From Kiritimatiellia bacterium (GTDB lineage: Bacteria; Verrucomicrobiota; Kiritimatiellia; RFP12; UBA1067): DNA of 64,000 bases. Numbering within the stretch: the first letter of the stretch is position 1; each line of letters opens with the position of its first letter. Shown piece by piece: positions 7,468 to 30,886 of the stretch. The stretch lies in contig JAFWKK010000018.1 in the NCBI GenBank assembly GCA_017514235.1, positions 62,001 through 126,000 of the forward strand, given 5' to 3'. The notes under the pieces were generated by a model. The model was not told where the DNA came from. It ran no database searches and saw nothing but the letters and a program-made list of their open reading frames with translations. A program made the translations under genes and the position numbers.

Positions 7468-7509
7468 TTCATTTCCCCTTTTGTTGTTGTTTGTTTTGTG
7501 AATGAGGAT

Positions 7510-15338: not shown

Positions 15339-15905
15339 TCACTTCCTTTGCGTAGTGTCGTAAATGCCGAACTCGCCGCGGCGGTTCATCGACCAGGCGC
15401 TCTCGTCGTGGCCCTCGGCAGCAGGCTTCTCCTCGCCGTAGCTGCGCGTCTGTATGCGGTTCGCCCCGATGCCGCTCTGCACGAGGTAGTTGCGAATGAT
15501 CACCGCACGGTTCTCGCCGAGAGACATGTTGTACTCGTTCGAACCGCGCTCGTCGCAGTTGCCCTCGACTACGACGACTCGCTCGGAATGCGAGTTCAGG
15601 TGCTGCGTCACGGCGTCGATCTTGCCAAGTTCGCCCTGCGGAACGACCGTGGAGTCGAAGCCGAAGTACACCGGCGCAAAGTCAACGTCGGTGCAACGCT
15701 GGTAAAGGTCCTCGAACTTCGCTTCGGACGCATCGCCCAGAGATCCCGACTGAGCGCCATTAAACCCCTCGGTGCTGATATCGCTCCCGGAGCCGATGCC
15801 ATCGCCCCCTGCGCCGCCGGCACCTCCCTTGCCGGCCTTGCCGTACTTGCAGCCCGCCACGCAGAGCGCTACCGCGAGAACCGTCATCATCGTCGAGAAC
15901 TTCAT
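15339..15905 (-). CDS. pal: Peptidoglycan-associated lipoprotein (OmpA domain)
   Basis: Outer-membrane lipoprotein that binds peptidoglycan (188 aa). The start at 15905 follows an AAGGAG Shine-Dalgarno sequence; it gives a signal sequence with lipobox VAGC. A Gly/Ser-rich linker (residues 22-50) leads to the OmpA domain, with VYFGFDSTVV, VVVVEGNCDERGSNEYNMSLGENRA and NRIQTRSYGEEKP. The G-CDERG-EYN-LGE-RA sequence is diagnostic of Pal. It is first in the operon pal-tatA/B-tatC-trkH. No tolB is present here. Confidence 0.93.
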   Translation of the reverse strand: MKFSTMMTVLAVALCVAGCKYGKAGKGGAGGAGGDGIGSGSDISTEGFNGAQSGSLGDASEAKFEDLYQRCTDVDFAPVYFGFDSTVVPQGELGKIDAVTQHLNSHSERVVVVEGNCDERGSNEYNMSLGENRAVIIRNYLVQSGIGANRIQTRSYGEEKPAAEGHDESAWSMNRRGEFGIYDTTQRK

Positions 15906-15979
15906 TTTTCCTGTCTCCTTTTTTGGTTTTAAATCTTGTTGCCTGTGTTGTTTGGAAATCCACTGGAAATCCACACGGT

Positions 15980-16008
15980 ATGATACCAAAAAACCGTCGC
16001 CGCGGCAA
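15980..16008 (-). promoter_or_regulatory. Promoter of the pal-tat operon
   Basis: Minus strand: -35 TTGCCG (16003-16008), exact 17-bp spacer, extended -10 TGGTATCAT (TATCAT at 15980-15985). The predicted leader of about 65-70 nt ends with a normal Shine-Dalgarno sequence. Confidence 0.65.
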
Positions 16009-16049
16009 TAGGGGTGCCACGCAATTCAAAGGAAGGCCGATCCCGTTCC

Positions 16050-17720
16050 TTACCACAGCTTCCAGACGTGGACGCTGTCGATGAAAACGGTCTCGCCGTC
16101 ATTCATCTCAGGACAGAACCCAAGCGAAAACCCCTTGGCTTCCTCCGGCACTTCCGCGAACGCCTCGCCCGTCTGCCAGCCTGAATCGTCAGGCGACGAG
16201 AACTCCAGCCATTTCGTCCCCAGGTCCCAACGCCATTTGCCGTCGCCGTCCTTCCAGCCAACGTAGGCTTTCGGCGTGCCGCCCTTCATCCGGCACGAGA
16301 CCTCATACAGCTCATGCTCCTGCCGTCCGCCAAAGTTGACTAGTATCGCCCCGTCCTTCAGACCGCTGACCGCGATGCACGACTTGTCGCCGTCGCCAGA
16401 TCCCTCAGCAAGCCTAAACACCGGATTGCCCTTGCCCGCATAGACCGAGTAAGGGCGCGGCAGTTTTCCCTTCGCCGACTGATCGTCCGGACGGCATTCG
16501 GGATTTGAGATCATGTCCGTCAGCAATCCCTTTGCCGCCAGTTCCGCCCTGCGGCTGCGAAAGGAATAAGAGTCGTCATCACGCGCTCGCATCGCCTGGT
16601 ACAGTCCGGGCAAAACCTCTGCCCATGTCTCCTTGCCCTTGACCGAAGGCGGCAGGGTCACGTTCTCCCAATGGACTGTCGGGTGCTTCTCCCCCCACAG
16701 CCACACGTACTCGTCCGCCAATCTGAAAGCATCGGCACAGTCCAGACGAAAATGCTCCAGCCGCGAACCGTGAACCGGCCCTTTGTACCACGCAGGACCG
16801 GGATTGATGTACATGTCAAGATAGAGGCCAAAACTGACCTGCACCTGTGCGGCATGCTTGGCACGGTTCTCCTGCGAAAGAAGCAAAGGCGCCATAATCC
16901 GCTGATTGCAGGCCGACACATGGTAGTCGTGCCTGTCGTACGCATAGCCGTAGGCGTGCTCGTCGCCGTCGATAATCCTTGCGGTCGGCGGCAGGACGTC
17001 CATGATGCCGTCCGCAAATGCGGGCCACAAGTCCCCTTTCCGACGCGCCGGAGCCAATGGATCGGGAGAGCCGAAATACTCCTTCCTGAATGTCAGGAAC
17101 CAGTAGAACAGCACCCGCGCCTCGGGCTGCTCCCTGAAGAGCGCGCCAAACACTTCGCGTCCGCGCCGCCGCACGGTCTTCACCAGCTCGTCGTAAGGCG
17201 GGTCGCCCTTGATGCGCTCGTACTGCTTCTGCTTGTGATAGTCCTCGGTGTCGGAGTTTATTCCCCTAAGCCCCGTCTCGCGCGAAAGCCGCCCAACGAC
17301 GCCCATGTTGTGCGCGATGCGCGCCCACGCCGCATCATCTGTCCATGAAACACGCTTCGTCGGCGCACTGAAACATTTCAGGAACGACTCACTCAGATGT
17401 TCCGTATTGGCAATCTTGCGGAGAGCGGGTATCTGAGTGGCGAATGCCTCGATGTCCCATTCCGGATTTGTCATGAAGCCGTAGGTGCCAATGGCCTTCC
17501 CAACACGGTTCGTCGCCCGAAGATAGATGCCGACGCCGTCAACGACCGTGTCCTTGAACTTGTCGGCATTGGCAAGAATCTGTTCAGGCGTCAGCCGTCC
17601 GTACTCCCACCCGAAGGAAATGCACTTCTTGCGCGGGCCATCGGCAAATGCCGTGGTTACGGCAAGCACCAACGATGCCAAAAGGATCGGTGGCGAAAAC
17701 TTGTTTTTGCACAGTCTCAT
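16050..17720 (-). CDS. Secreted protein of an unrecognised, possibly glycoside-hydrolase-like family (paralogue 1)
   Basis: A 556-aa protein with a signal peptide (cleavage near AFA-DG). It is clearly paralogous to the 22472-24127 protein: both share the N-terminal FGWEYGRLTPEQILANADKF-type region, RVSWTDDAAWARI, and an acidic motif DTEDY near residue 160 followed by GDPPYDEL. Both also share VSFGLYLDMYIN, WLWGEKH, and a C-terminal beta-sandwich that looks like a carbohydrate-binding module. The alternation of strand-ending motifs suggests a TIM-barrel hydrolase, but no known GH signature is seen and the function is not assigned. It is the second gene of an operon, 14 bp after the LamG-like protein. 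Confidence 0.6.
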   Translation of the reverse strand: MRLCKNKFSPPILLASLVLAVTTAFADGPRKKCISFGWEYGRLTPEQILANADKFKDTVVDGVGIYLRATNRVGKAIGTYGFMTNPEWDIEAFATQIPALRKIANTEHLSESFLKCFSAPTKRVSWTDDAAWARIAHNMGVVGRLSRETGLRGINSDTEDYHKQKQYERIKGDPPYDELVKTVRRRGREVFGALFREQPEARVLFYWFLTFRKEYFGSPDPLAPARRKGDLWPAFADGIMDVLPPTARIIDGDEHAYGYAYDRHDYHVSACNQRIMAPLLLSQENRAKHAAQVQVSFGLYLDMYINPGPAWYKGPVHGSRLEHFRLDCADAFRLADEYVWLWGEKHPTVHWENVTLPPSVKGKETWAEVLPGLYQAMRARDDDSYSFRSRRAELAAKGLLTDMISNPECRPDDQSAKGKLPRPYSVYAGKGNPVFRLAEGSGDGDKSCIAVSGLKDGAILVNFGGRQEHELYEVSCRMKGGTPKAYVGWKDGDGKWRWDLGTKWLEFSSPDDSGWQTGEAFAEVPEEAKGFSLGFCPEMNDGETVFIDSVHVWKLW

Positions 17721-17734
17721 TATGGGCAGGAACC

Positions 17735-19876
17735 TTACTTGATAGAAATGACCAATCCCAGTGGCTCGTTCTCGATCGTCATCGCTTCGGAAGCCTCGCT
17801 CTCCATTGTCGCGTCACCGACTGCATATACGGCCACGGCCTGATAGGTATCGGTCGGCGCATTCCTTGGCCTGCGCCACCGAACCGTCAACGTGCCGCCC
17901 TCGCCGCCATCAATCGGTTCGCCGTTGCACAGCCAACGGTAGGACGTCGCTCCAATCGCAGACGCCGTAAGCGTCGCCGTTTGTGCGGATGAAATCTTCC
18001 CGGTGCTCTGCGTCACCGCCACATCAAACACGCCTCCGTAAGTTAGCGGCGAAGCAGATCCGGACGCCTTGAAATCGCCATTGGGCAGAATGTCCTGCAA
18101 TCCAGCCACGCCATTCACTACAGCCGGAACGTAATCACGTTTCAGAACGTACTCGCCGCCCTCCTTCTCCCAAATCCGGCAGCCAAAAATGCGTATGGTT
18201 GCGTAGTGGGCGGACGGGTCGTAGGGTGACGACAACTTCAGCGTGAAGTTGTCAAACGCTCCAGAAGCAGTCGTTTCGCATATCGCGTTAGTTACCCCCT
18301 CGGTGATGATGACGCCACGACCGGCGGGGTTGTCAAGAATGACCGCCCGGCGAACGTTCACGGCACTCGCTCCGACATCCGGCCCGACACCCGTCTTCCA
18401 ACCGCCAGCAGTATTGATAAATCCAAAACCTCCATTATTTATGAACGCCGAAAAATTAGCACTGCCACCGGCGGCGAACAAATACCAGGTATCGCCCGTC
18501 ACACGGCTTTCTGCAGGAGAGTAGTCGATCTCAACCTTTGTTGCAGTGGTGACGGTATAACCCGTATCGACGTACCGCTTGTCCGACCGTTTCGTCTCTA
18601 CATACGGCGGACAGGGCGCGAGCTTGCCGCTGTAGGAAAGATATTTCTCGGCTGTTGTGCCCGGATAGACCGCAAATGCACCTGTAATGCTGTCTTTAAG
18701 CGCGGCGACTGCGCTACCGTCCTGCGCAGGCCCAACCACAGACGGCACAAAGTTCCGCACCAGTTTGCCTTCCTCGAAAATCTTGCATCCATAGACCTTC
18801 AACGGGGTGATGGCCGGCGTACCGCTGTGTTGAGAGGCGATCTTGATCGTCGATCCCGATTTGTTGTGCTCCGTGCAGGCCGCAACGCCTTTTGTGCCGT
18901 TCGTTTCTCCAGCCGTGATGACACTGGCAGAAACGTGGGCGGCATCCAGTACATACGTATGCCGCACGTCTTTTACACTCACGTAATCAATGCCAAGAAC
19001 GCCCGTTTGCCAACCGCTGGTTTGCGTACCATATCCGCTTGTCGGATGGATGAAGCCTGAAAAGAATTCCGATCCGGCGCCAGCAAACAGATACCAGGAC
19101 GAACTGCCGGAGAAACTGTCCACCAGTGCGCAATCGAGCATGAAGCAAGTGTTGGAGGTTGCCTGATATCCCGTGTCGATATAGACGCCGTTGTTGCCGG
19201 AAGGTGTCGCCACATACGGGCTTTCGAATGAATCGAAATCGCCACCGATGGTGATGCCGTAGAACTTCTTGCCGTTGGTGACAAATTCATCCGTCTTGAC
19301 GTCAATCAAACCGGCAACGCCATCCTTCAAAAACGGCTTGAATTCATGCGCCAAAACATCCGCCTCGTAGATGCGAAGACCAAATATCCGCATCTTGGCA
19401 TAGTTGCCGCTTCCCTGGGCATTCGATGCGAGCATGAGCGTCCGATTGTCAACATAGTCTGCAGTCTTTGCCAACGAGGCGGTGGCGTTTGTGACGCCAT
19501 CGCTGATTACGTAGCACGAATTGTTGGGGATATCCAGCACCACCGAGAGCCGCAGTTCTGGTGTATTTGCAATGCCAGAAGCATTGCCTGTGTTCCAATG
19601 TGAATTGTTATTGGCACCGCAAACGCCAAATCCCACGCCGCTGTCATTGAGGAACGAGCAGAAAGTCGGATTGCCCGCAAAGAGATACCATGTCTCGCCG
19701 CTTGGCCGCGCTTCCGGTAGGGCATAGTCGATTTCACAGCGTGTGCTGTTCTTGACGTTGTAGCGGGTGTCTATGCCGAACGTGCCATCCACTTCGATGT
19801 ACGCATCCGCCGCATATGCAGCGCTGCCGGATGCAAGTGCAACAATCAACGCACAGATTGTCGACAGGCTCTTCAT
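17735..19876 (-). CDS. Secreted protein with three LamG/ConA-like repeats and an Ig-like end
   Basis: A 713-aa surface or extracellular protein with a signal peptide (SAAYA-AD). Three tandem repeats of about 200 aa (about 24-215, 216-420, 421-640) share YxDTxY, a WYLFAG block, a sandwich core and a C-terminal FGxxIxE...RxFxPxxxxGxxxLxD block. They resemble LamG/concanavalin-like jelly rolls. An Ig-like segment (QTATLTASAIGATSYRWLCNG) follows, and there is no anchor motif. A carbohydrate-binding or adhesion role is inferred. It is first in the operon with the 16050 gene, under the palindrome-bearing promoter at 19935-19980, with two Shine-Dalgarno sequences (AGGAGG and AGGAG). Confidence 0.65.
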   Translation of the reverse strand: MKSLSTICALIVALASGSAAYAADAYIEVDGTFGIDTRYNVKNSTRCEIDYALPEARPSGETWYLFAGNPTFCSFLNDSGVGFGVCGANNNSHWNTGNASGIANTPELRLSVVLDIPNNSCYVISDGVTNATASLAKTADYVDNRTLMLASNAQGSGNYAKMRIFGLRIYEADVLAHEFKPFLKDGVAGLIDVKTDEFVTNGKKFYGITIGGDFDSFESPYVATPSGNNGVYIDTGYQATSNTCFMLDCALVDSFSGSSSWYLFAGAGSEFFSGFIHPTSGYGTQTSGWQTGVLGIDYVSVKDVRHTYVLDAAHVSASVITAGETNGTKGVAACTEHNKSGSTIKIASQHSGTPAITPLKVYGCKIFEEGKLVRNFVPSVVGPAQDGSAVAALKDSITGAFAVYPGTTAEKYLSYSGKLAPCPPYVETKRSDKRYVDTGYTVTTATKVEIDYSPAESRVTGDTWYLFAAGGSANFSAFINNGGFGFINTAGGWKTGVGPDVGASAVNVRRAVILDNPAGRGVIITEGVTNAICETTASGAFDNFTLKLSSPYDPSAHYATIRIFGCRIWEKEGGEYVLKRDYVPAVVNGVAGLQDILPNGDFKASGSASPLTYGGVFDVAVTQSTGKISSAQTATLTASAIGATSYRWLCNGEPIDGGEGGTLTVRWRRPRNAPTDTYQAVAVYAVGDATMESEASEAMTIENEPLGLVISIK

Positions 19877-19934
19877 GCTCCTATTCCTCCTATTCTTTTT
19901 GGGTTAAAGACTTTCTTGTTCCTTGATGCCGTGT

Positions 19935-19980
19935 ATGATATCAAATTGCGGTTTAGCCGACGACTAACCAAACGGTTAGT
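19935..19980 (-). promoter_or_regulatory. Activator-type promoter with 18-bp palindromic operator (site 1)
   Basis: Palindrome ACTAACCAAACGGTTAGT at 19963-19980, a 22-bp gap, then -10 TATCAT at 19935-19940 (minus strand). There is no -35. The operator centre falls near -44. A 60-bp stretch here (19921-19980) is closely similar to 24241-24300. It drives the 19876 to 16050 operon. Confidence 0.7.
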
Positions 19981-20002
19981 CGGCACGCACCTGCTACGAT
20001 CT

Positions 20003-22438
20003 TCATCTCGCCTCCAGTTCATGTTCGCCGGCGGAGAACACCCGCGTCGGCAAGCCTCGAAATCTGACGGTCGCCGAGGCACCCTCAGGTATGCGAAATC
20101 GCCACACACATCTGTCGCCACGCCATCTCCACTCGCTCTCGATGCGCCCGCACGGCGCGTCATATGCGGCCTTCACGAAGCCGATGCGCCCGTCTGGTAT
20201 CGGTTCGAGGATGAAATGCCTCATTCCTGGCGAAGCCGGGTCTTCGCGTATCCCAGCCATAGTCGACATCATCCACGAATAGACCGCGCCATACGCGTAG
20301 TGGTTGAAGCTGTTCATTCCCGGGTCCTGGAAGCCCCTCTTCGGATCATAGCAATCCCAGCGTTCCCATACGGTCGTGGCGCCGTTGTCGACTGCGAAGA
20401 GCCAGCTAGGGCATTTCTCCTGCAGAAGCAGCGTATAGGCAACGTCTGACGCCCCGATCTCCGTCAGCGTCTCCATCAGAATCATCGTGCCGAGGAACCC
20501 CGTCTGCAAACAGTCGCCGTGCCGACGGATGTCGGCGAGCAGATGCGCCTTGGTCCGCTCGGCCGCCTCGCCCGACACGAGTCCGAGCTTTAGCAGGAAG
20601 AGATCCGTAGTCTGCCCGCGATAGCGCTCGTGCATCAGCCCGTCGCCTCCGATGTACTTCGCCGCGAACTCCGCGCGCGCCTCGCCCTCAAGCTTGGCGT
20701 ACCGGCGCGCCTCGTCGGCCTTTCCAATGTCGCGTGCCATCTCCTTCATCGCAAGCGCGTCCCAGACGAAGAAGAAGCCCCGGAAACATTCGCGGTAGAA
20801 CTCCGGCGATCTGAGCGCCGGACCGTCACCGGCGAGCGAGTGCTCGAACGCCTGCCAATCGCCGTAGTGCTGCTTGTCGGGGCCGCGATGGGCCTCGATG
20901 AAGTCCATGTAGCGGGTCATCGCCTGCCAGTGCGCGTCAAGAAGCGCACGGTCGCCATAGCGCTTCCAGAGACGGTGCGGCACGAGGATGCCCGCGTCGC
21001 TCCATCCGGTGACCGCGCCCCTGCCGGAGAAACTCCACACGAGCGGCGCGAGACTCGGGAAAGCGCCGTCCGCGTCCTGGCTGTCGCGAAGGTCGCCAAG
21101 CCACTTGCCCAGCAGTCCCCGCACGTCCGCCGAATACTCCGCCGCCGAGACGAACGCAAGCGTGTCGGCTGTCCAGCCCAGTCGCTCGTCGCGCTGCGGA
21201 CAATCGGTCGGAATCTCGAGATAGTTGGAGCGGAAGCCCCAACGCACGTTCTCGGCAAGGCGATTGACCTTCGCGTTGTCCGTAACTATGACCGGCGACT
21301 CGTCCGCCGCCGATATGCTGGTTACGGGGACGCTTTCAACCGAAAGGATCCGCACGGGCGCAGTAACGGTTATGCTCGCATAGCGGTAGCCGAAGAACGT
21401 GAACGTCGGCCTATACGACTGGCGCCCTTCGCGGAACACATACATGATCGATGCCGCCGCGCTGCGCAGGTTGGCGAGAAGGACGCTTCCGGCCGGCCCG
21501 TCGCACCGGCGCGTCTTCTCGCCATTCGCGTCATTGAGCGCCTCGCCCATGCGCACGGACATTTCCGCACCGGCAGGTCCCTCCAGCTCGAAGCGCGGCA
21601 CTGCGGCGGCGTTCTGCGCAAAGTCGATGACAAGGGTTTCTCCCGGTTCGAGCAGAACCGGCGACCACGGCTCGAAGCGCCGCCGCACCATCACCTTGCC
21701 ATACGCTTCGTCCGTCGCATCCGACACGCCAGACCAAACGTATGCGGCGATGGGCTTCAGCACGAGGTCTTCGCGCAGGCAGACCGGCGGCCCCTGCCGC
21801 GAACGCACCTCGCCCTTGAAATCGTCGCAGCGAACGGACGCCGCGAAGCCTGCCGCCGTCCGACGCGCGTCGACTCGCTCACCCTCGAATATCCCGGCGT
21901 CGACTATCGGCCCAGTGTACGCGGAGAGCCAGCTCGGATCGCTGTAAAACTCGTCGGCGCCGCCATCCTCGTATGTCAGGCGCAACGTTGCACGAAGAGC
22001 GGCATTCTTTGGCAATGGGGCGCCGACCTTTGGATATGCGCGGCGTGTCATCCTGCAACGCCACCAGCTTGGCGCGACCGTCGCCTCGAACACGTTATCG
22101 CCGCGCTTCACCTCCGACGTGACATCGTAGGAGACTTCAAAGCGCGTCTTCTCCGGCTGTGAGAAGCCGGGATCAAGGAAGCGCGACACGACCGTGCCGT
22201 TGACACGCGCCTCGAATACGCCCAGCGCCGCAACGCGCCACTCGGCACGCGCCACTTCCCTATCCACGTGCACAACGCGGCGGAACACGGCCACGTTGGC
22301 GTTAGTCGTCGCCTGCGCCGCCGGACGAATCCACTGCGGCGCGTCGTTCGGTGCTAAGGCCAATGTCTCCGCAAACGTCGCAACTGCCGCGAATGTCGCG
22401 ATAGCAGACAACAGTATCTTGTATGTTTTCATGTTCAT
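20003..22438 (-). CDS. Alpha-L-rhamnosidase, GH78
   Basis: Exo-enzyme that releases alpha-L-rhamnose from glycans or glycosides. The 811-aa protein has a Sec signal peptide (ATFA-ET), two N-terminal beta domains, and an (alpha/alpha)6 barrel. The signature DCPQRDERLGWTADT starts at residue 412 and carries the acidic catalytic cluster. Downstream are TGWSDAGILVPHRLWKRYGD, TTVWERWDCYD and SFNHYAYGAVYSWM, all typical of the GH78 barrel, then a C-terminal beta-sandwich. Starts at 22438 or 22432 are equally possible (MNMK). It is 33 bp downstream of the 22472 gene in the same operon and is expected in the periplasm or at the surface. Confidence 0.93.
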   Translation of the reverse strand: MNMKTYKILLSAIATFAAVATFAETLALAPNDAPQWIRPAAQATTNANVAVFRRVVHVDREVARAEWRVAALGVFEARVNGTVVSRFLDPGFSQPEKTRFEVSYDVTSEVKRGDNVFEATVAPSWWRCRMTRRAYPKVGAPLPKNAALRATLRLTYEDGGADEFYSDPSWLSAYTGPIVDAGIFEGERVDARRTAAGFAASVRCDDFKGEVRSRQGPPVCLREDLVLKPIAAYVWSGVSDATDEAYGKVMVRRRFEPWSPVLLEPGETLVIDFAQNAAAVPRFELEGPAGAEMSVRMGEALNDANGEKTRRCDGPAGSVLLANLRSAAASIMYVFREGRQSYRPTFTFFGYRYASITVTAPVRILSVESVPVTSISAADESPVIVTDNAKVNRLAENVRWGFRSNYLEIPTDCPQRDERLGWTADTLAFVSAAEYSADVRGLLGKWLGDLRDSQDADGAFPSLAPLVWSFSGRGAVTGWSDAGILVPHRLWKRYGDRALLDAHWQAMTRYMDFIEAHRGPDKQHYGDWQAFEHSLAGDGPALRSPEFYRECFRGFFFVWDALAMKEMARDIGKADEARRYAKLEGEARAEFAAKYIGGDGLMHERYRGQTTDLFLLKLGLVSGEAAERTKAHLLADIRRHGDCLQTGFLGTMILMETLTEIGASDVAYTLLLQEKCPSWLFAVDNGATTVWERWDCYDPKRGFQDPGMNSFNHYAYGAVYSWMMSTMAGIREDPASPGMRHFILEPIPDGRIGFVKAAYDAPCGRIESEWRWRGDRCVWRFRIPEGASATVRFRGLPTRVFSAGEHELEAR

Positions 22439-22471
22439 CCGTTCGTTGCGGGCGGGTTCACGGGCGCGTTA

Positions 22472-24127
22472 TCATCTAAGCGGGAAGACGCCAATGGAAT
22501 CGTACCAGGCCTTTTCGCCCGGCGCAAGACCCACGCCGAGAGTAAACTGCAGCTCGACGGCGTCCGTAGGCACACGCACCACCAGTTCGCCCTGCCGCCA
22601 ACGGCCTTCCTCCTTGCCGAACGGCATGTAGAGCGGGACCATCTTCAGGTATTGGCCGGAAGCGTTCTTCCAGACGGCCGAGGCGGACGTCACACCGCCG
22701 CTTGCCGAACATTTCAGCAGGTACAGCTCGCCCGGCTTGACGCCTTTCTGCCGATAGACGAAGCATCCGCTCGGCACGCCTTCCGAGCAGAGCGATGTGC
22801 TGTCGCCTTCGCCGAACGTCGTGTCGCATCCGAAGCTGCCGCGATGGTTTTCCTTCTTGCCGGGCTGCCAGCTTTCAAACGGCTTGGGCACCGCGCCGGC
22901 CTTGCAGTCGGCGCAGTCGCCGTTCGCCACGAGGTTCGTCCAGACGCCCGAGGCCTCCATCTCGCTGCGGCGGTGCCGCGCGAACGCCGCCGGATCCGTG
23001 GCGGAGAAGATGACGTCGTAAAGACCGGGCAGCCTGTCCTCCCATCTTTCGGGAAGGGTTCCCTCAGCGATCCTGAAGTCCGGCTTCCATTTCACGAACT
23101 GCAGCTTCTCGCCATAGATCCACACAAATTCGTCGGCGGCGTCCAGCGCCTGTTCCAGGTTGCGTCTGAACGTCTCGGTGCGCGAACCGTCCTTCGGCGG
23201 GAAATACCAGCGGCTGTCCTCTTCGTTCACGTACATGTCGAGATAGAGGCCAAAACCCGCCTGAACCTGCCGCGCGTACTTCTCGCGGTTCTCCGGCGCC
23301 ACAAGGCGCACGAGCGAATTGCGCACTTGGCACACCGAACGGTAGAAATCGTTGCGGTCGGCATCGTAACGGTACGCATACTCGTTGCCGTCCACAAGGC
23401 GCGCTCCCGGCGAAACGACGTCCAGCATGCCGTTCAAGAACGCGGGCCAAAGGGAATGTCTGCCGCGCACTGAGCTTTCCACGCTGCTGGCCGGGCACTT
23501 GTCGTTGCCCATGGTCAGCAGCCAGAACGACAGCACGACTGCATCTGGATATTCGGCAAACACCCCACGGAAGACTTCCGCGCCGCGCTTGCGCGCCATC
23601 TGGCACAGTTCGTCGTACGGCGGGTCGTTGGGTTCGCGGACGAACTGCCGAGCCTGCGAATAGTCCTCGGTATCCATCTGGAGCCCCCGGCATCCGCCGT
23701 CGCGTGCGATGCAGGCGGCGACGCGCATGTTTTCACCCAGGCGCGCCCACGCCTCGTCGTCCGTCCAGGCAATGCGCTTTCGCGGCGATCGGAGCGTGAC
23801 GAGGAAGTTGTAGCGGAACGCCCGGTGCTCCATCATTTTCCTGAGTTTCGGTACCATCGGCGCAAACATCTCGTAGGACCAGTCTTCCGTGTAGATGTTG
23901 CGCATACCCACGGCATTGCCCCTGCCGTCGCGTCCGCGCAGCCAGACGAACACGCCGTCAAGCCCAACGTCGTCGAACGCGTCCGCGTTCGCCAGAAAGT
24001 CGTCCACCGTCGCCGAGTTGAAGCCCCAGCCGCCTCCAATCACCTTCTTCTGATCCGCAGCATCTGCACACAGCGCAATCGCACACGCCACACCGGCGAC
24101 TATCAGCCTTTTAGTTGTCATCTTCAT
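22472..24127 (-). CDS. Secreted protein of an unrecognised, possibly glycoside-hydrolase-like family (paralogue 2)
   Basis: A 551-aa secreted protein (signal peptide ending CADA-AD) in the same family as the 16050-17720 product. Shared landmarks are GLDGVFVWLRG, KRIAWTDDEAWARL, DTEDY near residue 153 followed by NDPPYDELCQMARKRGAEVF, GFGLYLDMYVNEED and FVWIYGEK. The C-terminal 130 residues look like a carbohydrate-binding beta sandwich. The conserved DTEDY and the Asp/Glu-rich core are candidate catalytic positions, but this is inference. It is first in the operon with the GH78 rhamnosidase, so a linked role in rhamnose-containing glycan breakdown is likely. Confidence 0.6.
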   Translation of the reverse strand: MKMTTKRLIVAGVACAIALCADAADQKKVIGGGWGFNSATVDDFLANADAFDDVGLDGVFVWLRGRDGRGNAVGMRNIYTEDWSYEMFAPMVPKLRKMMEHRAFRYNFLVTLRSPRKRIAWTDDEAWARLGENMRVAACIARDGGCRGLQMDTEDYSQARQFVREPNDPPYDELCQMARKRGAEVFRGVFAEYPDAVVLSFWLLTMGNDKCPASSVESSVRGRHSLWPAFLNGMLDVVSPGARLVDGNEYAYRYDADRNDFYRSVCQVRNSLVRLVAPENREKYARQVQAGFGLYLDMYVNEEDSRWYFPPKDGSRTETFRRNLEQALDAADEFVWIYGEKLQFVKWKPDFRIAEGTLPERWEDRLPGLYDVIFSATDPAAFARHRRSEMEASGVWTNLVANGDCADCKAGAVPKPFESWQPGKKENHRGSFGCDTTFGEGDSTSLCSEGVPSGCFVYRQKGVKPGELYLLKCSASGGVTSASAVWKNASGQYLKMVPLYMPFGKEEGRWRQGELVVRVPTDAVELQFTLGVGLAPGEKAWYDSIGVFPLR

Positions 24128-24139
24128 TTTCGACGCGCT

Positions 24140-24220
24140 TCACCGAAAGATCAACGTGAAGCCTTCCGTCCGTGCATATACCGATTTGCCCCCTATGGAT
24201 CTTTTAGCTACCTTATGCAT
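24140..24220 (-). CDS. 26-residue leader ORF with a prepilin-like motif
   Basis: Lies inside the approximately 120-nt leader of the 22472 gene: ATG 24220 after GAAAGGAACG, stop at 24140, 13 bp before the next start. The peptide is MHKVAKRSIGGKSVYARTEG followed by FTLIFR. EGFTLI is the type IV prepilin/pseudopilin processing motif, normally continued by ELLVV. Here the frame ends at once, so it is either a truncated remnant of a pseudopilin gene or a small leader peptide. Expression is unproven. Confidence 0.35.
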   Translation of the reverse strand: MHKVAKRSIGGKSVYARTEGFTLIFR

Positions 24221-24254
24221 TTTTCGTTCCTTTCAATGACCCTTGATGCCGCGC

Positions 24255-24300
24255 ATGATACCAAATTGCCGTCTCGCCGCCTACTAACCACATGGTTAGT
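24255..24300 (-). promoter_or_regulatory. Activator-type promoter with 18-bp palindromic operator (site 2)
   Basis: Palindrome ACTAACCACATGGTTAGT at 24283-24300, a 22-bp gap, then extended -10 TGGTATCAT (TATCAT at 24255-24260) on the minus strand. No -35. Same geometry as site 1. It drives the 24127 to 20003 operon. Confidence 0.7.
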
Positions 24301-24316
24301 CTCTCTGCTGGCGCAG
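24283..24316. repeat. 34-bp direct repeat bounding the ATPase gene, left copy
   Basis: The operator plus CTCTCTGCTGGCGCAG matches 25827-25860 at 30 of 34 positions in the same orientation. The DUF4143 ATPase gene lies exactly between the two copies. Confidence 0.75.
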
Positions 24317-24319
24317 GCG

Positions 24320-25648
24320 CTAAACGAACATCACCATGTAATGCGGAAGCGTTACCTTCTTGCCGAACCGGCCGACATTGCCGTTGATGAATTTGTACCC
24401 GACTTCTATCTCGGGGCTTTCGACAAGGCGGTTGAATGATTCCGAACAGCAGGATCCCGCTTTCACTTCGATGGGAACGATGGATGATCCGCGGGCGACC
24501 ACGAAATCGATCTCACCCTGCCCTGGCTTCTTCTGGTAGTAGTACGGCTCGTATCCTCGTCTCACCAGAGCACCCATGATGGCGTTCTCGTATATGCCGC
24601 CCTTGGCTGGGCCTTTCAGCGTGTTCTCAATTATCGGACTGACAATCTCAAATCCAGACATCGCGGCGAGGATTCCCGTATCTGCGACATAAAGTTTGAA
24701 CATGTCGTTCTTTTTGTATGCGCGCAGAGGAATGTCCACGGACTCAAGATTGTGGCATTGCAGCGCAAGGGCGGATTCCCTCAGCCAGTCTATGGACGAA
24801 CCGAACTTCCGTGACGAGCCGTTCTTTTCCACACTTGAGTACTTGAACTTTCTGTTCTCCCTAGCAAGCTGCGAAGGAATAGAAACGTAGCAGGCTCGGA
24901 CTTTGGGCTTTTCGGTCGTGAGGGCATAACGCGATATGTCATCCAGATTGGACGCGAGAATGTCCCTCTGCACTTCGAACACCGCACCAAAGTTCTTGGA
25001 CTTTACATACGTCGCCACCACATCCGGCATTCCGCCAATGACGATATATTCGCGGAAGAGTCGAAGCATGTGCTCGTTGGTGGAATTCGGCAGCGTTGTC
25101 AGGCTGTCGAACGACTCTCTGTACACGGAAAGCGAGTCATCGGTGTATCCGACAGCCCAAAGGAACTCCTCGAAGTCGAGGGAGTGCATAACGACCTGTT
25201 GCTCATATCCTACCGGAATAGAGGTCTCTCGCCGTTCCTGATTGAGCCTTGCACCATCATCAAGGAAGGTGATGCCAAGGAGCGAGCCTGAGCCTACGAC
25301 ATGCGCTCGCCCGTCAATTGCCAGGGGCTTGAATGCCGAACGAGCCTTTGGGCAGACCTGGATCTCATCAAGAAAAATAAAAGTTTCTCCAGGAACTACA
25401 CGGAACGATGGCAGACGTGCACTGATACGCTTGAAGATGTCGTCGGCTTCCAGATTGCCGTCAAAGAATTCCCGGTACTCTGGGTTGATCAGGAAGTTCA
25501 GGTAGAGATAGGATGTGTAGTTTGTTTTTCCAAAATGGTCAATGATGAAGGTTTTTCCTATCTGACGGGCACCTTTTACCAGAAGGCACTTTCTAGGAGT
25601 CGATGCCTTCCAGTTTGCGAGAACATCATAGAACTTGCGCTTGAGCAT
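24320..25648 (-). CDS. AAA+ ATPase with DUF4143
   Basis: A 442-aa protein of the widespread AAA_14/DUF4143 family, whose biological role is unsettled; some members behave as mobile or defence-associated genes. Walker A is GARQIGKT (residues 26-33) and Walker B is FIFLDEIQ. A sensor-like VGSGSLLGI follows. The C-terminal DUF4143 half includes GGIYENAIMGALVRRGYEPYYY and a restriction-endonuclease-like core EIDFVVARGSSIVPIEVKAG, with D and ExK in place. It ends 20 bp from operator site 2. It probably interrupts an ancestral control region rather than belonging to the glycan regulon. Confidence 0.85.
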   Translation of the reverse strand: MLKRKFYDVLANWKASTPRKCLLVKGARQIGKTFIIDHFGKTNYTSYLYLNFLINPEYREFFDGNLEADDIFKRISARLPSFRVVPGETFIFLDEIQVCPKARSAFKPLAIDGRAHVVGSGSLLGITFLDDGARLNQERRETSIPVGYEQQVVMHSLDFEEFLWAVGYTDDSLSVYRESFDSLTTLPNSTNEHMLRLFREYIVIGGMPDVVATYVKSKNFGAVFEVQRDILASNLDDISRYALTTEKPKVRACYVSIPSQLARENRKFKYSSVEKNGSSRKFGSSIDWLRESALALQCHNLESVDIPLRAYKKNDMFKLYVADTGILAAMSGFEIVSPIIENTLKGPAKGGIYENAIMGALVRRGYEPYYYQKKPGQGEIDFVVARGSSIVPIEVKAGSCCSESFNRLVESPEIEVGYKFINGNVGRFGKKVTLPHYMVMFV

Positions 25649-25710
25649 TCATTTTCCCTATTTAAGACATATGAATGAATTATATCAAATACTGGCAGGG
25701 CTTGCAATAT

Positions 25711-25790
25711 GCAGCTTTTTGACGGGTATGGCATAGTGATGATTGCAACTTTTTGACGGGCATGACACTGCTTGAATTGCAACTTTTTAG
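25711..25790. repeat. Tandem repeat with exact 34-bp period
   Basis: GCARCTTTTTGACGGGYATGRCA occurs at 25711 and 25745, and a truncated third copy (GCAACTTTTTAG) at 25779, each 34 bp apart. It lies upstream of the ATPase gene, between its -10 box (TGATATAAT, 25680-25688) and operator site 3. Confidence 0.7.
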
Positions 25791-25826
25791 CTTTCCTTAC
25801 GGCGACGGACAAGAAAATGTCCTGAA

Positions 25827-25873
25827 ACTAACCAAACGGTTAGTCTCCCTGCGGGCGCAGAATATGATAAAAT
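25827..25873 (+). promoter_or_regulatory. Operator site 3 and promoter of the histidine kinase gene
   Basis: Palindrome ACTAACCAAACGGTTAGT (25827-25844), a 23-bp gap, then -10 TAAAAT (25868-25873) on the plus strand, with no -35. The operator centre is near -44, as at sites 1 and 2. The -10 ends nine bases before the TTG start. The operator plus CTCCCTGCGGGCGCAG (to 25860) is the right copy of the 34-bp direct repeat. Confidence 0.7.
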
Positions 25874-25882
25874 ACTTTCGCC

Positions 25883-27982
25883 TTGAAACCGCTCCTGACA
25901 CTTCTCGCCTGTATGCTTCTGCCTGCCGCCAAAGCCCACGCGCCATTGCGCACGGCGGCAGAGATCAATGCGCTTTCGGATGACGAGTTTGCGTCTGGCA
26001 TTCCCTTTGACATTGAAGGCACCGTTTCCTTTGTCGCCTCTTCGGCCTCCCCCGGATTCAACCCCAATGTCACCATACAAGACGGGACAGGTGCCGTCTC
26101 CCTGTTTTCGGCACGTGGTCTTCCCGTTCCGTCAACGGGCGACGTCATCCGCGCGACCGGGACGACATCGTTCGACACGTTCTCCCAGCCTCATGCCGAC
26201 TACACCAATCTCGTCCGCATCGGTCACGCCGCCACACCCAAGCCTGAGGTTCTATCGCTGGGCGAACTCCTTCGCGGCGACTACAACTGTCGTCTCGTGA
26301 GAACGGAGGGGACGATTGCCGATGCGTTTCGGGACGAGATCGACCCCCGCTACAACTATCTGCTGATCAAACGCGGCGCAGAAATCCTGCCGGCCGCATT
26401 CCCCGATCCCAACTTAACCGAATCGACGCTTCAAGCTCTTGTCGGCGCCGAAGTCAACGTCAGCGGCCTCTGTCTTTTCGTATCCGGTTCGCGTGATTTC
26501 CTCGGTCCACGGCTGGAACTTACGGGGCTTGACGCCATTCGCGTGACGAAACCCGCACCCAGCGATCCGTTTGACGCCCCGACGCTCGCGGACATCCACC
26601 GCATCAATCCGGCGACCGTGGCGAACATGGGGCGCCGCACCGTCGCTGGTCGCGTCATCGCCGTGTGGAACGGCGACCGGTTCATCATCAAGACTGCCGA
26701 CGGACGCTTCCTCCGCATCACTCTGGCGCGGCGGCATTCCCCGCCCGCATACGGCGAGACTGTTCGTGTCGTCGGCTTTCCGGAAACAGACCTCTTCCGC
26801 ATCAACATCAGCGAGGCGATCTGGCGGCGGGAACAGTCCGTCCTGCCGCCCGAAGAGCCTCCGCAGCCTTGCACGGCATCGGCTCTGCTAATGGATGCCA
26901 GCGGACGGCAAAAGTTCCGTCCCCGCTACTTCGGCCATACTCTGAAACTCAAGGGCCAGCTCAGGGACACCCCGGAACCGAATCGCCTCAAGGCGCATGC
27001 CCTTCTCGACTGCGGCAACGTCATCATTCCCATAAACACCGACATGTGCCCCAACGTCTTCAAGGACGCCGCCGCAGGCTGCATCGTCGAACTGTCTGGC
27101 ATATGCCTCATGGAGACCGAGAGCTGGCGCTCGGACGCCCCCTTCCCACGCGTGACCGGCGTGACACTCATCCTGCGCACCGTTGCCGACCTGAAGATCC
27201 TGTCGCGTCCGCCGTGGTGGACGCCGCTGCGCCTTTCCATCGTCATAGGCGCGCTGCTTGTGGTCATAAGCGGCATATTCATCTGGAACCGCATGCTGAA
27301 CCGGCTCGTCGAACAGCGTAGCCGCGCCCTGCTGAAGGAACAGACCGCGCACGACGTTGCCGACCTGAAAGTGGAGGAGCGTACGCGCCTCGCCGTGGAG
27401 CTGCATGACACCCTTGCACAGAACCTGACAGGCATCGCGCTCCAGATCGACGCCGCGCAGATGGCGGCGGAAGAGGACCCCAACTCAGCGATGCCCTATC
27501 TGGAGATGGCCAGCCGCAAGATGCAGAGTTGCCGCGACAACCTGCGAAACTGCCTCTGGGATCTCAGAAGCCGCGCCTTCGAGGAAAAAGAACTGGCCGA
27601 CGCCATCCGCAAGACCATCGCCCCGCACATCGGCGAGACCGACGTGCAGATCGAGATGCACATCCCCTGCCGAAAGCTCTCCGACAACACGATCCACGCC
27701 GTCCTGTGCATCATCCGCGAACTGACCATCAACGCCGTCCGGCACGGCAAGGCCGCGCACATCGCCGTTTGCGGAACGCTGGACAGTTCTGGCCTCTCCT
27801 TCACGGTCGCCGACGACGGCATCGGCTTCGATCCGTCACGACGCCCGGGACTTTCGGAAGGTCACTTCGGGCTCCAAGGCGTCACCGAACGCGTCCTACG
27901 TCTCGGCGGTGCGTTTGAGATCACCAGTACTCCCGGTCACGGCGCAACTGCCACGCTCACCCGCCTCACCCCCGACACCTAA
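25883..27982 (+). CDS. NarX-type sensor histidine kinase with large extracytoplasmic region
   Basis: Membrane sensor of a two-component system (699 aa). TTG 25883 is chosen because it opens a signal sequence (MKPLLTLLACMLLPAAKAHA) and no in-frame ATG precedes it. Residues 30-430 are predicted outside the membrane and contain OB-like beta stretches (IEGTVSFVASS, VTIQDGTGAVSLF, VAGRVIAVWNGDRFIIKT, LKLKGQLRD). A TM helix (about 448-469) and a short coiled coil lead to the HisKA_3 box RLAVELHDTLAQNLTGI (phospho-acceptor H508). The HATPase domain has ELTINAVRHG and DDGIGFD. It precedes its response regulator by 41 bp. Its promoter carries the operator of the rhamnosidase operons. Confidence 0.9.
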   Translation: MKPLLTLLACMLLPAAKAHAPLRTAAEINALSDDEFASGIPFDIEGTVSFVASSASPGFNPNVTIQDGTGAVSLFSARGLPVPSTGDVIRATGTTSFDTFSQPHADYTNLVRIGHAATPKPEVLSLGELLRGDYNCRLVRTEGTIADAFRDEIDPRYNYLLIKRGAEILPAAFPDPNLTESTLQALVGAEVNVSGLCLFVSGSRDFLGPRLELTGLDAIRVTKPAPSDPFDAPTLADIHRINPATVANMGRRTVAGRVIAVWNGDRFIIKTADGRFLRITLARRHSPPAYGETVRVVGFPETDLFRINISEAIWRREQSVLPPEEPPQPCTASALLMDASGRQKFRPRYFGHTLKLKGQLRDTPEPNRLKAHALLDCGNVIIPINTDMCPNVFKDAAAGCIVELSGICLMETESWRSDAPFPRVTGVTLILRTVADLKILSRPPWWTPLRLSIVIGALLVVISGIFIWNRMLNRLVEQRSRALLKEQTAHDVADLKVEERTRLAVELHDTLAQNLTGIALQIDAAQMAAEEDPNSAMPYLEMASRKMQSCRDNLRNCLWDLRSRAFEEKELADAIRKTIAPHIGETDVQIEMHIPCRKLSDNTIHAVLCIIRELTINAVRHGKAAHIAVCGTLDSSGLSFTVADDGIGFDPSRRPGLSEGHFGLQGVTERVLRLGGAFEITSTPGHGATATLTRLTPDT

Positions 27983-28023
27983 CCCCAGCTAACCACTAGC
28001 CACCAATCACTAGCCACTAACCC

Positions 28024-28647
28024 ATGCCCTCCAAGCTAAAGATCCTGATCGTTGACGACCACGCCATCGTGCGCGACGGACTTGCCGCCATCCTCAAGTT
28101 TCAGAAGGACATGACCGTAGTCGGAGAAGCGGACGACGGTCAAGCCGCCATCAAGAAGGCGCAGGAGCTTCAGCCCGACATCATCCTGATGGACCTGATG
28201 ATGCCAAACATGAACGGTACGGATGCGACTTCCGCCATAAAGCGCATCCTGCCTAACGTTCAAATTCTCATCTTGACCTCTTACGGCACGTCTGCCGACC
28301 TGTCCCGCGCTTTCAGGAACGGCGCGACAGGCGCCATCACGAAATCGCTCCCGAAGGAAGAATTGCTTTCCGCAATACGGAACGTCGCGTCCGGGACACG
28401 TGTCGTCTCGCCTGAAATCGAACAGACGCTCAAGGAAGAGGCGTCCACCCCATCGCTCACGCCGCAGCAGTTCAAGATACTCCATTCCCTCACGCGCGGT
28501 CTCTCCAACAACGACATCGCCCGCGAATTCGGGCTCTCAAAGGCCGGCGTAAAGTTCCATCTGCTCACCATCTTCCGCAAGCTCAACGTCGCCAACCGCA
28601 CGGAAGCCGTCGGCCTCGCCTCGCGAAAGCACATGTTCCAGGAATGA
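28024..28647 (+). CDS. NarL/FixJ-family response regulator
   Basis: DNA-binding partner of the upstream kinase (207 aa). The receiver domain has the acidic pair D11/D12, phospho-acceptor D57 (PDIILMDLMMPN), and the Thr and Lys of LILTSYG and ITKSLPKEEL. The LuxR-type helix-turn-helix spans about 143-200 (LTPQQFKILHSLTRGLSNNDIAREFGLSKAGVKFHLLTIFRKL). NarL-type regulators bind inverted 7-bp half-sites, which fits the ACTAACC/GGTTAGT palindromes nearby; this assignment is inference. There is no Shine-Dalgarno sequence before the ATG, so translation may be coupled to the kinase gene. Confidence 0.93.
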   Translation: MPSKLKILIVDDHAIVRDGLAAILKFQKDMTVVGEADDGQAAIKKAQELQPDIILMDLMMPNMNGTDATSAIKRILPNVQILILTSYGTSADLSRAFRNGATGAITKSLPKEELLSAIRNVASGTRVVSPEIEQTLKEEASTPSLTPQQFKILHSLTRGLSNNDIAREFGLSKAGVKFHLLTIFRKLNVANRTEAVGLASRKHMFQE

Positions 28648-28676
28648 GATAAGCCAGAGCCTCTGGCAACATGTGA

Positions 28677-29612
28677 CTAAAGCACTGCCATCGCCAGGGC
28701 GATCACGACGGGCATTGTCACGATGCTTGCGAGCGTAGTGCCGCTCACTATCGCGACGCCGACGTCAATGTCGCGCCGGAACTTCGCCGAGAAAATCGAC
28801 ACAAGCGCCGCCACCGGAGCCGACGAGGCGATGACCATCGCAAGCATCATGTCCGCATCGAGCCATCGCCGGAACGGAAGCATCGCCGCGACAAGCAACA
28901 GCGGACTCGCGAAGAGCCGCAGCGCAGCCGCCGCGTATACCCCGCCCGACCGCGCCACCCTACCGAACTTCACGCCGACCAGGCTGTAGCCGACAACCAC
29001 CATGGCGACGGGCGTGTTCAGGTTCGCGAGATGGCGGACCGGCTCCGCAACGACCGCCGGCAGGCGCGCAGACGTCAGGAAGAGCGGCAGCCCGAGCGCG
29101 ATGCCGACGGTGCCGGGGTTGAATACCGACTTCAGCAACCCTTCTCTCCCGCCTCCGCACTCCTCCCGCATCGTCTTCACGCCCCAGCTCCAGATGAAGA
29201 GATTGAACACCACGATGTAGACAGCTCCGAAAAAGACACCGCGCGGCCCGAGGATCGCCTGCTCGAGCGGCAGGCCCATGAAGCCGGCGTTCGAGAAGAC
29301 CGCGGCAAGGCGAAGCGTCCGCCGCGTGTCGCCGCCGCCGCGCAAGCAGAGTGCGGAGAGCGCGATGAGCGCGATGTGACCGAATGACGCAAATGCAAAC
29401 GCCAGGCCAAGTCCGCCGAGCATGGCCTGGTCGAACGGACGCTGGAAGCAGTCGACTATCACGCACGGCGTGACGACGAACATGAGCAGGTTCACCATGC
29501 CGCCGATGGCGCCGTCGCCCAGCAGCTTCAGGCGGCGAAGCGCCGCGCCGACGCCCATCAGCACGAAAAGCACCGCGACTTGCGAGGCAACTGAAACCAG
29601 GTTTTCCATCAC
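28677..29612 (-). CDS. AEC-family transporter (auxin efflux carrier superfamily)
   Basis: Inner-membrane permease, 311 aa with about ten TM segments. Family landmarks are the N-terminal VLFVLMGVGAALRRLKLL, the broken-helix FSNAGFMGLPLEQAILGPRG, and NPGTVGIALGLPLF, with GYSLVGVKFG in the second half. AEC proteins move small organic anions such as malate; the substrate here is unknown. Its ATG overlaps the stop of the fused phosphatase gene, so it is the last gene of the AI-2E permease-thiD-phosphatase-AEC operon. Confidence 0.85.
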   Translation of the reverse strand: MMENLVSVASQVAVLFVLMGVGAALRRLKLLGDGAIGGMVNLLMFVVTPCVIVDCFQRPFDQAMLGGLGLAFAFASFGHIALIALSALCLRGGGDTRRTLRLAAVFSNAGFMGLPLEQAILGPRGVFFGAVYIVVFNLFIWSWGVKTMREECGGGREGLLKSVFNPGTVGIALGLPLFLTSARLPAVVAEPVRHLANLNTPVAMVVVGYSLVGVKFGRVARSGGVYAAAALRLFASPLLLVAAMLPFRRWLDADMMLAMVIASSAPVAALVSIFSAKFRRDIDVGVAIVSGTTLASIVTMPVVIALAMAVL

Positions 29613-30886
29613 ATGCCGGCAAGCGCGGCGAAATCGCGCGCGGCCTGCTCCGCGGACGAGAACCGTATGGCGCTCCAGCCGGCGCGGCGCGCCCCAGTGC
29701 AGTTAGCCTCCGTGTCGTCGATGAAGCAGAGCTCGCCGGCGGGAAGCCCGAGGCGCGACCGGAGAAGCTCGTATATGCGGCGCTGCGGCTTGAACATCCG
29801 CTCCTCCCCGGAAATCACCATTGCGTCCGCAAGCGCGATGTAGTCGGCGAACACCTCGCGGAACCGCGCCGCCATGTTCGTTGACATGTTGGAGAGGATT
29901 CCGATCTTGAGTCCGTGCGCCTTCAGGCCGCGCATCCACTCTAGCGTCGCGAGGTTGCGGCTCCCCTCAAGAAAGCTGGCCATGTCTTCCGCGACGATCT
30001 TTGCCCGGACGTCCGCCGACAGCTCAAGCCCGGCATCAGCCCATATGAGGTCGTACATCTCGTCCATCGACATGAAGTCCGAGTCCATGAGCCGCCTGTA
30101 CCGCGCAAAGCCGTCCTCAAGAACCTTCCAGTCTATTCCGAGCTGATCCGTCCGCGCACGCACGCGCTCGGGCATCGTCGATGTCGTCATCACGCCGCCG
30201 AAGTCAAAGACGACGGCAGAGAGCCTGCGCACGCCGCAGATGCCGTCGGAGAGGCCCGTCCGCACGAACTCGTATCGGCGCGTGCCGTCGGGATAGACGA
30301 GTATTGCGCCGGCGTCGAGGAACCGCACCCAGTTCTCGCGCGTGAACGGAACCGCCGCCGCGCCCCTGGCCGTGAGGAACGCCGCGATGTAAAGGTCGTG
30401 CGTGACTGCGACGAAGAGCTTCTTGGCGAAGCGCTCGTCGAGCCACGCCTCGAACGCGTCGGTAGCCTCGCCGAGCGGAGCGAACCCGCGCTGCCGCCCG
30501 GTCGCAAAATACTCGATGCAGGCGTTGAAGAAGTTCTCCGGCTTGAAGACCTCCAGCACCTCGTCGGTGTCGGTATAGTAGAACGAGTCGTTGCCGAGCC
30601 GGCCTTCCGCCAGAATCTCAGGAGCGGCGACACCCATGCCCGCAGCGATGCGCTCGGCAGTCATGCGCGTGCGCATCAGCGGACTTGCCGCGAACTGCAC
30701 GTCGCCGTGGAAATCGGCGAGGCAGCGCCCGAGCTCGGTCGCCGTCCGCGCCCCACGCTCCGTCAGCGCCAGCGCGTCGCCGAACGTCGGGTCGTCGGGG
30801 TCTATCTGCGGACGCTCCGCGTGCCGCACCATCAGTATGGCCCGCGCCCCCTTCTCCATCTCGGCCTTCAATTCGTCAATGGTCAT
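29609..30886 (-). CDS. Two-domain phosphatase: histidine phosphatase fused to a HAD hydrolase
   Basis: A 425-aa fusion. The N-terminal half (1-215) is a histidine-phosphatase domain: ILMVRHAERP holds the phosphorylated His (H22), VTHDL the second His (H163), and ASPLMRTRMTAERI the usual arginine region. The C-terminal half (222-425) is a class-IA HAD hydrolase: VVFDFGGV (nucleophile D228; the DxG form seen in YihX/epoxide-hydrolase-type HADs), LSNMS as motif II, KPQRRIYE as motif III and FIDDTEANCTGA as motif IV. The start at 30886 overlaps the thiD stop (ATGA). Substrates are unknown; sugar or cofactor phosphates are likely. Confidence 0.82.
   Translation of the reverse strand: MTIDELKAEMEKGARAILMVRHAERPQIDPDDPTFGDALALTERGARTATELGRCLADFHGDVQFAASPLMRTRMTAERIAAGMGVAAPEILAEGRLGNDSFYYTDTDEVLEVFKPENFFNACIEYFATGRQRGFAPLGEATDAFEAWLDERFAKKLFVAVTHDLYIAAFLTARGAAAVPFTRENWVRFLDAGAILVYPDGTRRYEFVRTGLSDGICGVRRLSAVVFDFGGVMTTSTMPERVRARTDQLGIDWKVLEDGFARYRRLMDSDFMSMDEMYDLIWADAGLELSADVRAKIVAEDMASFLEGSRNLATLEWMRGLKAHGLKIGILSNMSTNMAARFREVFADYIALADAMVISGEERMFKPQRRIYELLRSRLGLPAGELCFIDDTEANCTGARRAGWSAIRFSSAEQAARDFAALAGM

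Follow-up and report, generated by a model that had tools for sequence, protein, structure and literature searches.

Among the closest described relatives of the system considered here are the NarX-NarL and NarQ-NarP two-component systems of Escherichia coli, with which it shares a HisKA_3 kinase, a response regulator of receiver-GerE (REC-GerE) type, and inverted 7-base half-sites. The system lies in a 64,000-nucleotide stretch of a Kiritimatiellia bacterium (assembly GCA_017514235.1, contig JAFWKK010000018.1, positions 62,001 to 126,000), hereafter the window, to which all coordinates refer unless a locus is named, and it comprises an adjacent sensor kinase gene (25883-27982) and regulator gene (28024-28647) together with three copies of an 18-bp palindromic operator. 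The NarL output domain binds inverted heptamers in a 7-2-7 arrangement as a dimer (PMC4549865), and NarL activates E. coli ogt from -44.5, with single sites elsewhere working from -67.5 and -77.5 (PMC7419079). Compared with NarL as it appears there, the half-sites in the window are 4 bp rather than 2 bp apart (7-4-7, with module-specific arms) and carry other letters, and the regulon is local, whereas that of NarL is global. Bacteroides genomes contain many hybrid sensor-regulators that control glycan-use loci (polysaccharide utilization loci; PMC11253607); there the kinase and regulator are fused and the DNA-binding domain is AraC-type, whereas the window pair is encoded by two genes and uses a GerE domain. 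Pontiella agarivorans, of the same phylum (Kiritimatiellota), carries genes for glycoside hydrolases and sulfatases with HisKA_3 kinase and regulator genes close by, a similar gene neighborhood, and the passages available from that paper contain no operators, regulon, or family analysis (PMC10880615). Our literature search, judged by titles and abstract openings and with subscription papers mostly outside its scope, revealed no operators of such Kiritimatiellota systems and no NarL-family code linking operator arms to the recognition helix. The best solved relatives of the regulator itself are of the VraR/LiaR type (PDB 7ve6 and 4gvp; whole-length match, E 3.8e-37), with NarL (1a04) also among the solved relatives. 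VraR/LiaR systems are autoregulated envelope systems whose gene context and signal differ from those of the window pair, and we know of no family of private operators for regulators of this type.

We propose, with a probability of roughly 0.84, that the window carries an autoregulated, local, activator-type regulon of the adjacent pair with a private operator, and that it represents one case of a paralogous family. NarL-type two-component regulation is a known kind of control; the new part is a family that keeps the same architecture while its operator letters change in association with the regulator helix. To our knowledge, the avoidance of cross-action between paralogous two-component systems has been examined chiefly at the step between kinase and regulator. 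Here, a single bacterial group supplies dozens of sister pairs that are alike in promoter layout and unlike in operator, which opens the DNA step to direct reading and testing. If the operator letters are indeed read by a few residues of the recognition helix, as considered below, NarL-family regulators would have a recognition code that can be read from sequence, and insulation between sister systems would have an explanation at the level of DNA. The operator beside each kinase also points to the promoters of its regulon, offering a way into the regulation of glycan genes in a group that is uncultured and found largely in herbivore guts.

Operators of the window

The operator ACTAACCANNNGGTTAGT occurs in the window at 19963-19980, 24283-24300, and 25827-25844 (sites 1, 2, and 3), and allowing up to 3 mismatches gave 6 strand-wise matches, compared with a mean of 0.30 and a maximum of 3 in 100 shuffles. 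The symmetric pattern ACTAACCNNNNGGTTAGT has three occurrences in the 3.96-Mb genome of origin, and a search of that genome with CTAACCNNNNGGTTAG, one mismatch allowed, returned just the three window sites; among 97 genomes searched, only this one contained the symmetric palindrome. Chance occurrence of the palindromes is ruled out by the shuffles and by this uniqueness, and the random genome-wide scatter that the first-pass annotation had named as a possible refutation was not what we found, as the only three copies, even with one core mismatch, lie within 5.9 kb of the kinase/regulator pair. Site 1 (minus strand; ACTAACC-AAAC-GGTTAGT in plus-strand letters) is oriented toward the gene of a LamG-like protein and is followed at 22 bp by a -10 hexamer, TATCAT (TTTGATATCAT; 19935-19940, minus strand). 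Site 2 (minus strand; ACTAACC-ACAT-GGTTAGT in plus-strand letters) likewise has TATCAT at 22 bp (TTTGGTATCAT; 24255-24260, minus strand), both hexamers being assigned by sequence and spacing, and site 3 (plus strand; ACTAACC-AAAC-GGTTAGT), in the kinase promoter, lies 23 bp from an extended -10 hexamer, TAAAAT (TATGATAAAAT; 25868-25873, plus strand). All three hexamers carry TGN just upstream. With the hexamer start counted as -12, the operator centers fall near -43.5, -43.5, and -44.5 for sites 1, 2, and 3, respectively. Sites 1 and 2 have 53 of 68 bases in common over the palindrome and the 50 bp downstream, compared with 5 of 20 upstream. The first-pass annotation had reported the three palindromes at these coordinates, a -10 after 22-23 bp, centers near -44, and a block common to sites 1 and 2 that includes the -10, and our measurements agree on each point. 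One small correction concerns the palindrome: what is conserved is a 7-4-7 unit whose spacer differs between sites (AAAC, ACAT).

L133 and L241, which appear to be a single record from another genus, encode a kinase 83% identical to that of the window and keep the operator ACTAACC-AAAC-GGTTAGT base for base, with a single palindrome serving both the kinase -10 at 23 bp and a divergent -10 at 22 bp. In the window, this single site appears split, site 2 retaining the divergent promoter and site 3 the kinase promoter, and the two sites have alike right flanks (CTCYCTGCKGGCGCAG) around an ATPase gene with Pfam matches to AAA_14/DUF4143 (24320-25648, minus strand). Because the relative has one unsplit site and the window flanks are alike, this gene was apparently inserted into a once single two-sided operator, duplicating about 34 bp. 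At another locus, L087, an open reading frame (ORF) at 7309-8753 that looks ATPase-like by eye stands between two copies of that locus's own operator, as at 24283-25860 in the window, and looks as if it too had entered with a duplication.

The sites, their uniqueness, geometry, recurrence, and co-variation with the regulator are seen in the sequence, and from them we infer binding, activation, operon extents, signal, and insulation between modules in the following form. The adjacent HisKA_3 kinase would phosphorylate the NarL-type regulator once its outer domain senses a product of the target glycan, and a regulator dimer would then bind the palindromes. Positioned at about -44 beside an extended -10, the dimer would activate three promoters: site 3 would drive the kinase-regulator operon itself (autoregulation), site 2 an operon of a secreted protein and a GH78 rhamnosidase, and site 1 an operon of the LamG-like protein and another protein from the secreted family seen at site 2. 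Such a regulon would be local and private, the operator occurring nowhere else in its genome. Sister modules would keep the geometry and change the operator letters along with the recognition helix, so that, within one cell, a sister system would not have to touch the promoters of another. The first-pass prediction of one autoregulated NarL-type system acting through three sites gains support as a prediction from the operator's uniqueness, the relative with the 83% identical kinase, the layouts of paralogous modules, and the co-variation of arms and helix.

Sister modules and their promoter geometry

The genome of the window encodes four other full-length kinase relatives (38-43% identical) and three shorter matches, and two of its relatives have differing 18-bp palindromes upstream (CCCCCAC-TTTA-GTGGGGG and CCCCCTA-ACAT-TAGGGGG). 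Within the genus, a kinase match was found in 54 of 62 genomes at E 0.001, many of them partial; within the order, a profile search at E 1e-60 reached 61 of 162 genomes and 10 of 33 genera. The named relatives come from metagenome-assembled genomes of Kiritimatiellae, Verrucomicrobia, and similar groups, many of them, judged by title, from herbivore guts, and the family belongs mostly to gut Kiritimatiellae. Our first set consisted of 80 genus regions with 114 kinase ORFs, including those of the window's own genome, and was reduced to 70 non-redundant loci; a regulator match lies just downstream in 110 of the 114 (redundant) ORFs.

The best extended -10 of each upstream region, which could be named for 68 of the 70 loci, served as the anchor. 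Kinase-side palindromes whose six inner arm pairs all match were separated from this hexamer by 21-25 bp (14 loci), 32-34 bp (13), or 43-44 bp (4), the only other distances below 60 bp being 31 and 41, once each. The cluster means are about 10 bp apart, that is, one helical turn. A plain TANNNT scan gave no clear peak, and the peaks emerged with the extended -10. As the -10 weights had been drawn up after the first set was seen, the geometry was put on trial with 38 further kinase ORFs in 35 regions, tested after the phases had been recorded; this set is only partly independent, having been filtered at 45% shared 6-mers and including relatives with the same operator (L241, L270, L194, and L244). 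All 14 palindromes found there within 60 bp of a -10 fell in the recorded phases (L244 counted twice), and the remaining ORFs of the set had no strict palindrome within that distance. The inverted repeat by itself is a poor signal: 38 of 70 loci contain one with perfect 7-bp arms around a spacer of 2-6, but so do 12% of simple shuffles, and it is the fixed geometry that discriminates.

The geometry is often two-sided. A far-side -10 at 22-24 bp was present in 31 of 44 modules, with the best hexamer elsewhere in 6 and none above threshold in 7. The full two-sided layout with 6/6 arm pairs was found at 34 of 108 kinase ORFs (33 distinct operators), compared with 0 in eight phase-shifted controls, and with at least 5/6 pairs at 41 of 108 (40 distinct operators), compared with at most 1 in the controls; relaxation to 4/6 pairs was dropped, as the count of 52 of 108 stood against 1-11 in the controls. 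For the 41 two-sided modules, 40 divergent ORFs were found (L244 twice), and 37 of the 40 begin like secreted proteins with a signal peptide, according to a crude rule by which the start codon was partly chosen as well. Pfam matches in 33 of these ORFs include beta-helix, pectate-lyase-like, GH106, GH88, GH35, GH31, esterase, and LamG domains. L060 and L064 carry, about 1.3-1.5 kb ahead of the kinase gene, two TATAC-type operators in tandem with an offset of 22 bp; they lie 22 and 44 bp from a single -10, and the closer one is degenerate (2-3 arm mismatches).

The same anchoring suggests how the kinase message begins. In 48 of 49 distinct modules (36 of 49 under a stricter first-start rule), the kinase frame has a start codon between -2 and +7 relative to the predicted start of transcription. 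An extended -10 stands 10-19 nt from a start codon in 64 of 91 kinase ORFs; among the other long ORFs of these regions, the figure is 46 of 443. Because of this placement and this contrast, the kinase mRNA is probably almost leaderless.

Operators are concentrated in the neighborhood of their own module. In the first set, 31 modules have a strict operator, and of these operators we counted 10 further exact copies in 458 kb of own regions and 21 in 29.8 Mb of the regions of other modules, an enrichment of about 31-fold that is conservative, since the swapped control includes related modules with a common operator and the background is therefore too high. The 10 copies belong to 7 of the 31 modules, and the best -10 of every one of them lies at 22-24, 33, or 44 bp, one being weak. 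The CCCCCAC and CCCCCTA operators of the two own-genome paralogs have one genome copy each. Among the 62 genus genomes, ACTACAC-N4-GTGTAGT has four sites, three of them in the module of genome G008, and CCTATCC-N4-GGATAGG has four, three of them in the module of genome G030. The stray CCTATCC site, in G056, has a -10 at 22 bp and precedes a start matching the first 77 residues of the L087 kinase; the stray ACTACAC site, in G057 (L284, 9248-9265), has an extended -10 at 21 bp.

Operator arms, the recognition helix, and alternative readings

Operator distance was correlated with each 8-residue window of the regulator across 41 modules with both an operator and a regulator. The top window, residues 171-178, coincides with the start of the recognition helix (r 0.365), followed by residues 177-184 (0.357), while the best receiver window reached 0.309; the best single column was residue 178 (0.393), and the second was residue 47, in the receiver (0.334). 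For window 171-178, picked after the scan, the partial r given the rest of the protein was 0.339, a value reached in 0 of 2000 permutations (n = 41). At a receiver identity of 45-55%, 5-8 equal helix residues (n = 46) went with 5.6/14 arm differences, and 0-2 equal residues (n = 335) with 8.1/14. Of 20 strict operators with CCC at arm positions 2-4, 19 go with an acidic residue 178, and of 21 that lack CCC, none does. The other pairings of residue 178 are Q with CTAT, CTGT, or CTAG; K with TATAC and also with ACTACAC and GGTAGTC; A mostly with ACCC; and F with ACTAAC or ACTACC. By the end offset of the regulator match to NarL, residue 178 aligns to chain position 188 of 1a04, which should be NarL V189, a DNA-contacting residue. 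From these patterns, we consider it slightly better than an even bet that gut Kiritimatiellae hold a natural library of paralogous modules with one promoter architecture (a two-sided, helically phased 7-4-7 operator and a kinase mRNA starting almost at the start codon), in which module-specific operator letters are read by a few recognition-helix residues, with residue 178 as a main selector. Separately, two modules from different families of the order, L096 and L244, have a common operator, ACTACAC-AACC-GTGTAGT, and a common helix, ENTVRKATST; the sister of L244 in the kinase-receiver tree is L092, not L096, a pattern that joint transfer of helix and operator would fit.

Several results weigh against the regulon and its extension to a library. 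The co-variation of arms and helix is confounded with descent, as the tree test contains only three independent CCC-arm changes, all concordant, and is underpowered (sign test p 0.25). Among relaxed operators, the rule pairing acidic 178 with CCC has 4 exceptions in 49 (L057, L089, L266, and L259). The full layout was not found at 67 of 108 kinase ORFs even at 5/6 pairs, nor was a strict phased palindrome found at two of the four other full-length paralogs of the window's own genome (C75 = L017 and C9 = L019). No further exact copy was found for 24 of the 31 first-set modules in the regions examined, many of them short contigs, and no family kinase lies in the 19 kb read for the stray ACTACAC site of G057. 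Finally, where the first-pass annotation had seen no -35 at its three sites, the best -35 match on the divergent side of the 41 two-sided family promoters averages 3.24/6, a partial -35, and the pure picture of an activator in place of a -35 is therefore weakened.

These partial -35 matches, together with sites that end 22-23 bp from the hexamer and hence touch the -35 region, would also suit a regulon in which the adjacent regulator binds the sites and represses. We regard such a local repressor-controlled regulon as unlikely and favor activation because the kinase-side sites sit at about -44, -55, and -65, in steps of a helical turn as expected of activators contacting RNA polymerase, and because the kinase promoters combine extended -10s with weak -35s (mean best match 2.66/6, compared with 2.28 at random places). 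Binding by some other regulator, for example a global one, with the kinase-regulator pair merely a target, would accommodate the fact that the pair's promoter is only one of three sites, and palindrome binding is common among regulators in general; yet the arms differ by module, a given arm sequence occurs mainly in its own module, and the recognition helix of the neighboring regulator shows the best co-variation with the arms, which renders this alternative quite improbable. Least probable of all, and hardly credible, is that the palindromes work as RNA hairpins (attenuators or terminators) or mark the ends of mobile elements and are not protein sites: they are inverted repeats near gene borders, with the AAA_14/DUF4143 gene between two window copies and a by-eye similar ORF between those of L087, but their place is ahead of the predicted start of transcription and at fixed helical phases, in many cases with promoters to both sides, and another genus keeps the operator without an ATPase gene dividing it.

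Genes of the window module

The kinase (25883-27982, plus strand; 699 aa) carries HisKA_3 (E 9.7e-15) and HATPase_c (E 2.4e-10) domains, both over the Pfam cut-off, with a signal peptide and one membrane span read by eye; its TTG start lies about 3 nt past the predicted transcription start. Its long, conserved N-terminal part (residues ~20-440) contains repeated GTV-like stretches and matches no Pfam family. The adjoining gene encodes the NarL/FixJ-type regulator (28024-28647, plus strand; 207 aa; Response_reg E 4e-30, GerE E 1.4e-15), whose recognition helix reads LSKAGVKFH, with F at residue 178. The "NarX/NarL-type" label of the first-pass annotation is apt for these domains (HisKA_3/HATPase and REC-GerE) and fails for the nitrate-regulator proteins themselves, as the scores fell far under the NCBIfam cut-offs (NarL 146.8 vs 250, NarQ 104.8 vs 553, NarX 69.9 vs 578).

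Under site 1, the first gene encodes a secreted 713-aa protein (17735-19876, minus strand), called LamG-like in the first-pass annotation and without a Pfam match here, and the second a secreted 556-aa protein (16050-17720, minus strand). Under site 2, the first gene encodes a secreted 551-aa protein (22472-24127, minus strand) with no Pfam or NCBIfam match, to which the 556-aa protein is 36% identical over query residues 8-549; five matches to this secreted family occur in the genome. By eye, another member appears to be encoded in L270 (3434-5110), by the divergent gene there, which is under a different operator. The second gene under site 2 (20003-22438, minus strand) encodes a GH78-type alpha-L-rhamnosidase, an assignment resting on four rhamnosidase models, catalytic and accessory, above cut-off (Bac_rhamnosid6H, E 3.4e-96, and three further domains). 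The rhamnoglycan substrate named in the first-pass annotation does not follow from the sequence; a rhamnoglycan signal is only suggested by this one GH78 gene. Markers of a SusCD-type polysaccharide utilization locus were absent, with neither a SusD nor a TonB-receptor Pfam match among the 10 proteins scanned at 15339-30928. Among 10 ORFs scanned further out, one is HepT-like, two have no match, and seven match ordinary cell functions (an RNB exonuclease, two kinases of sugar-/pyrimidine-kinase types, TrkH, TatC, an aminotransferase, and an AI-2E transporter), which gives the module the look of a compact island.

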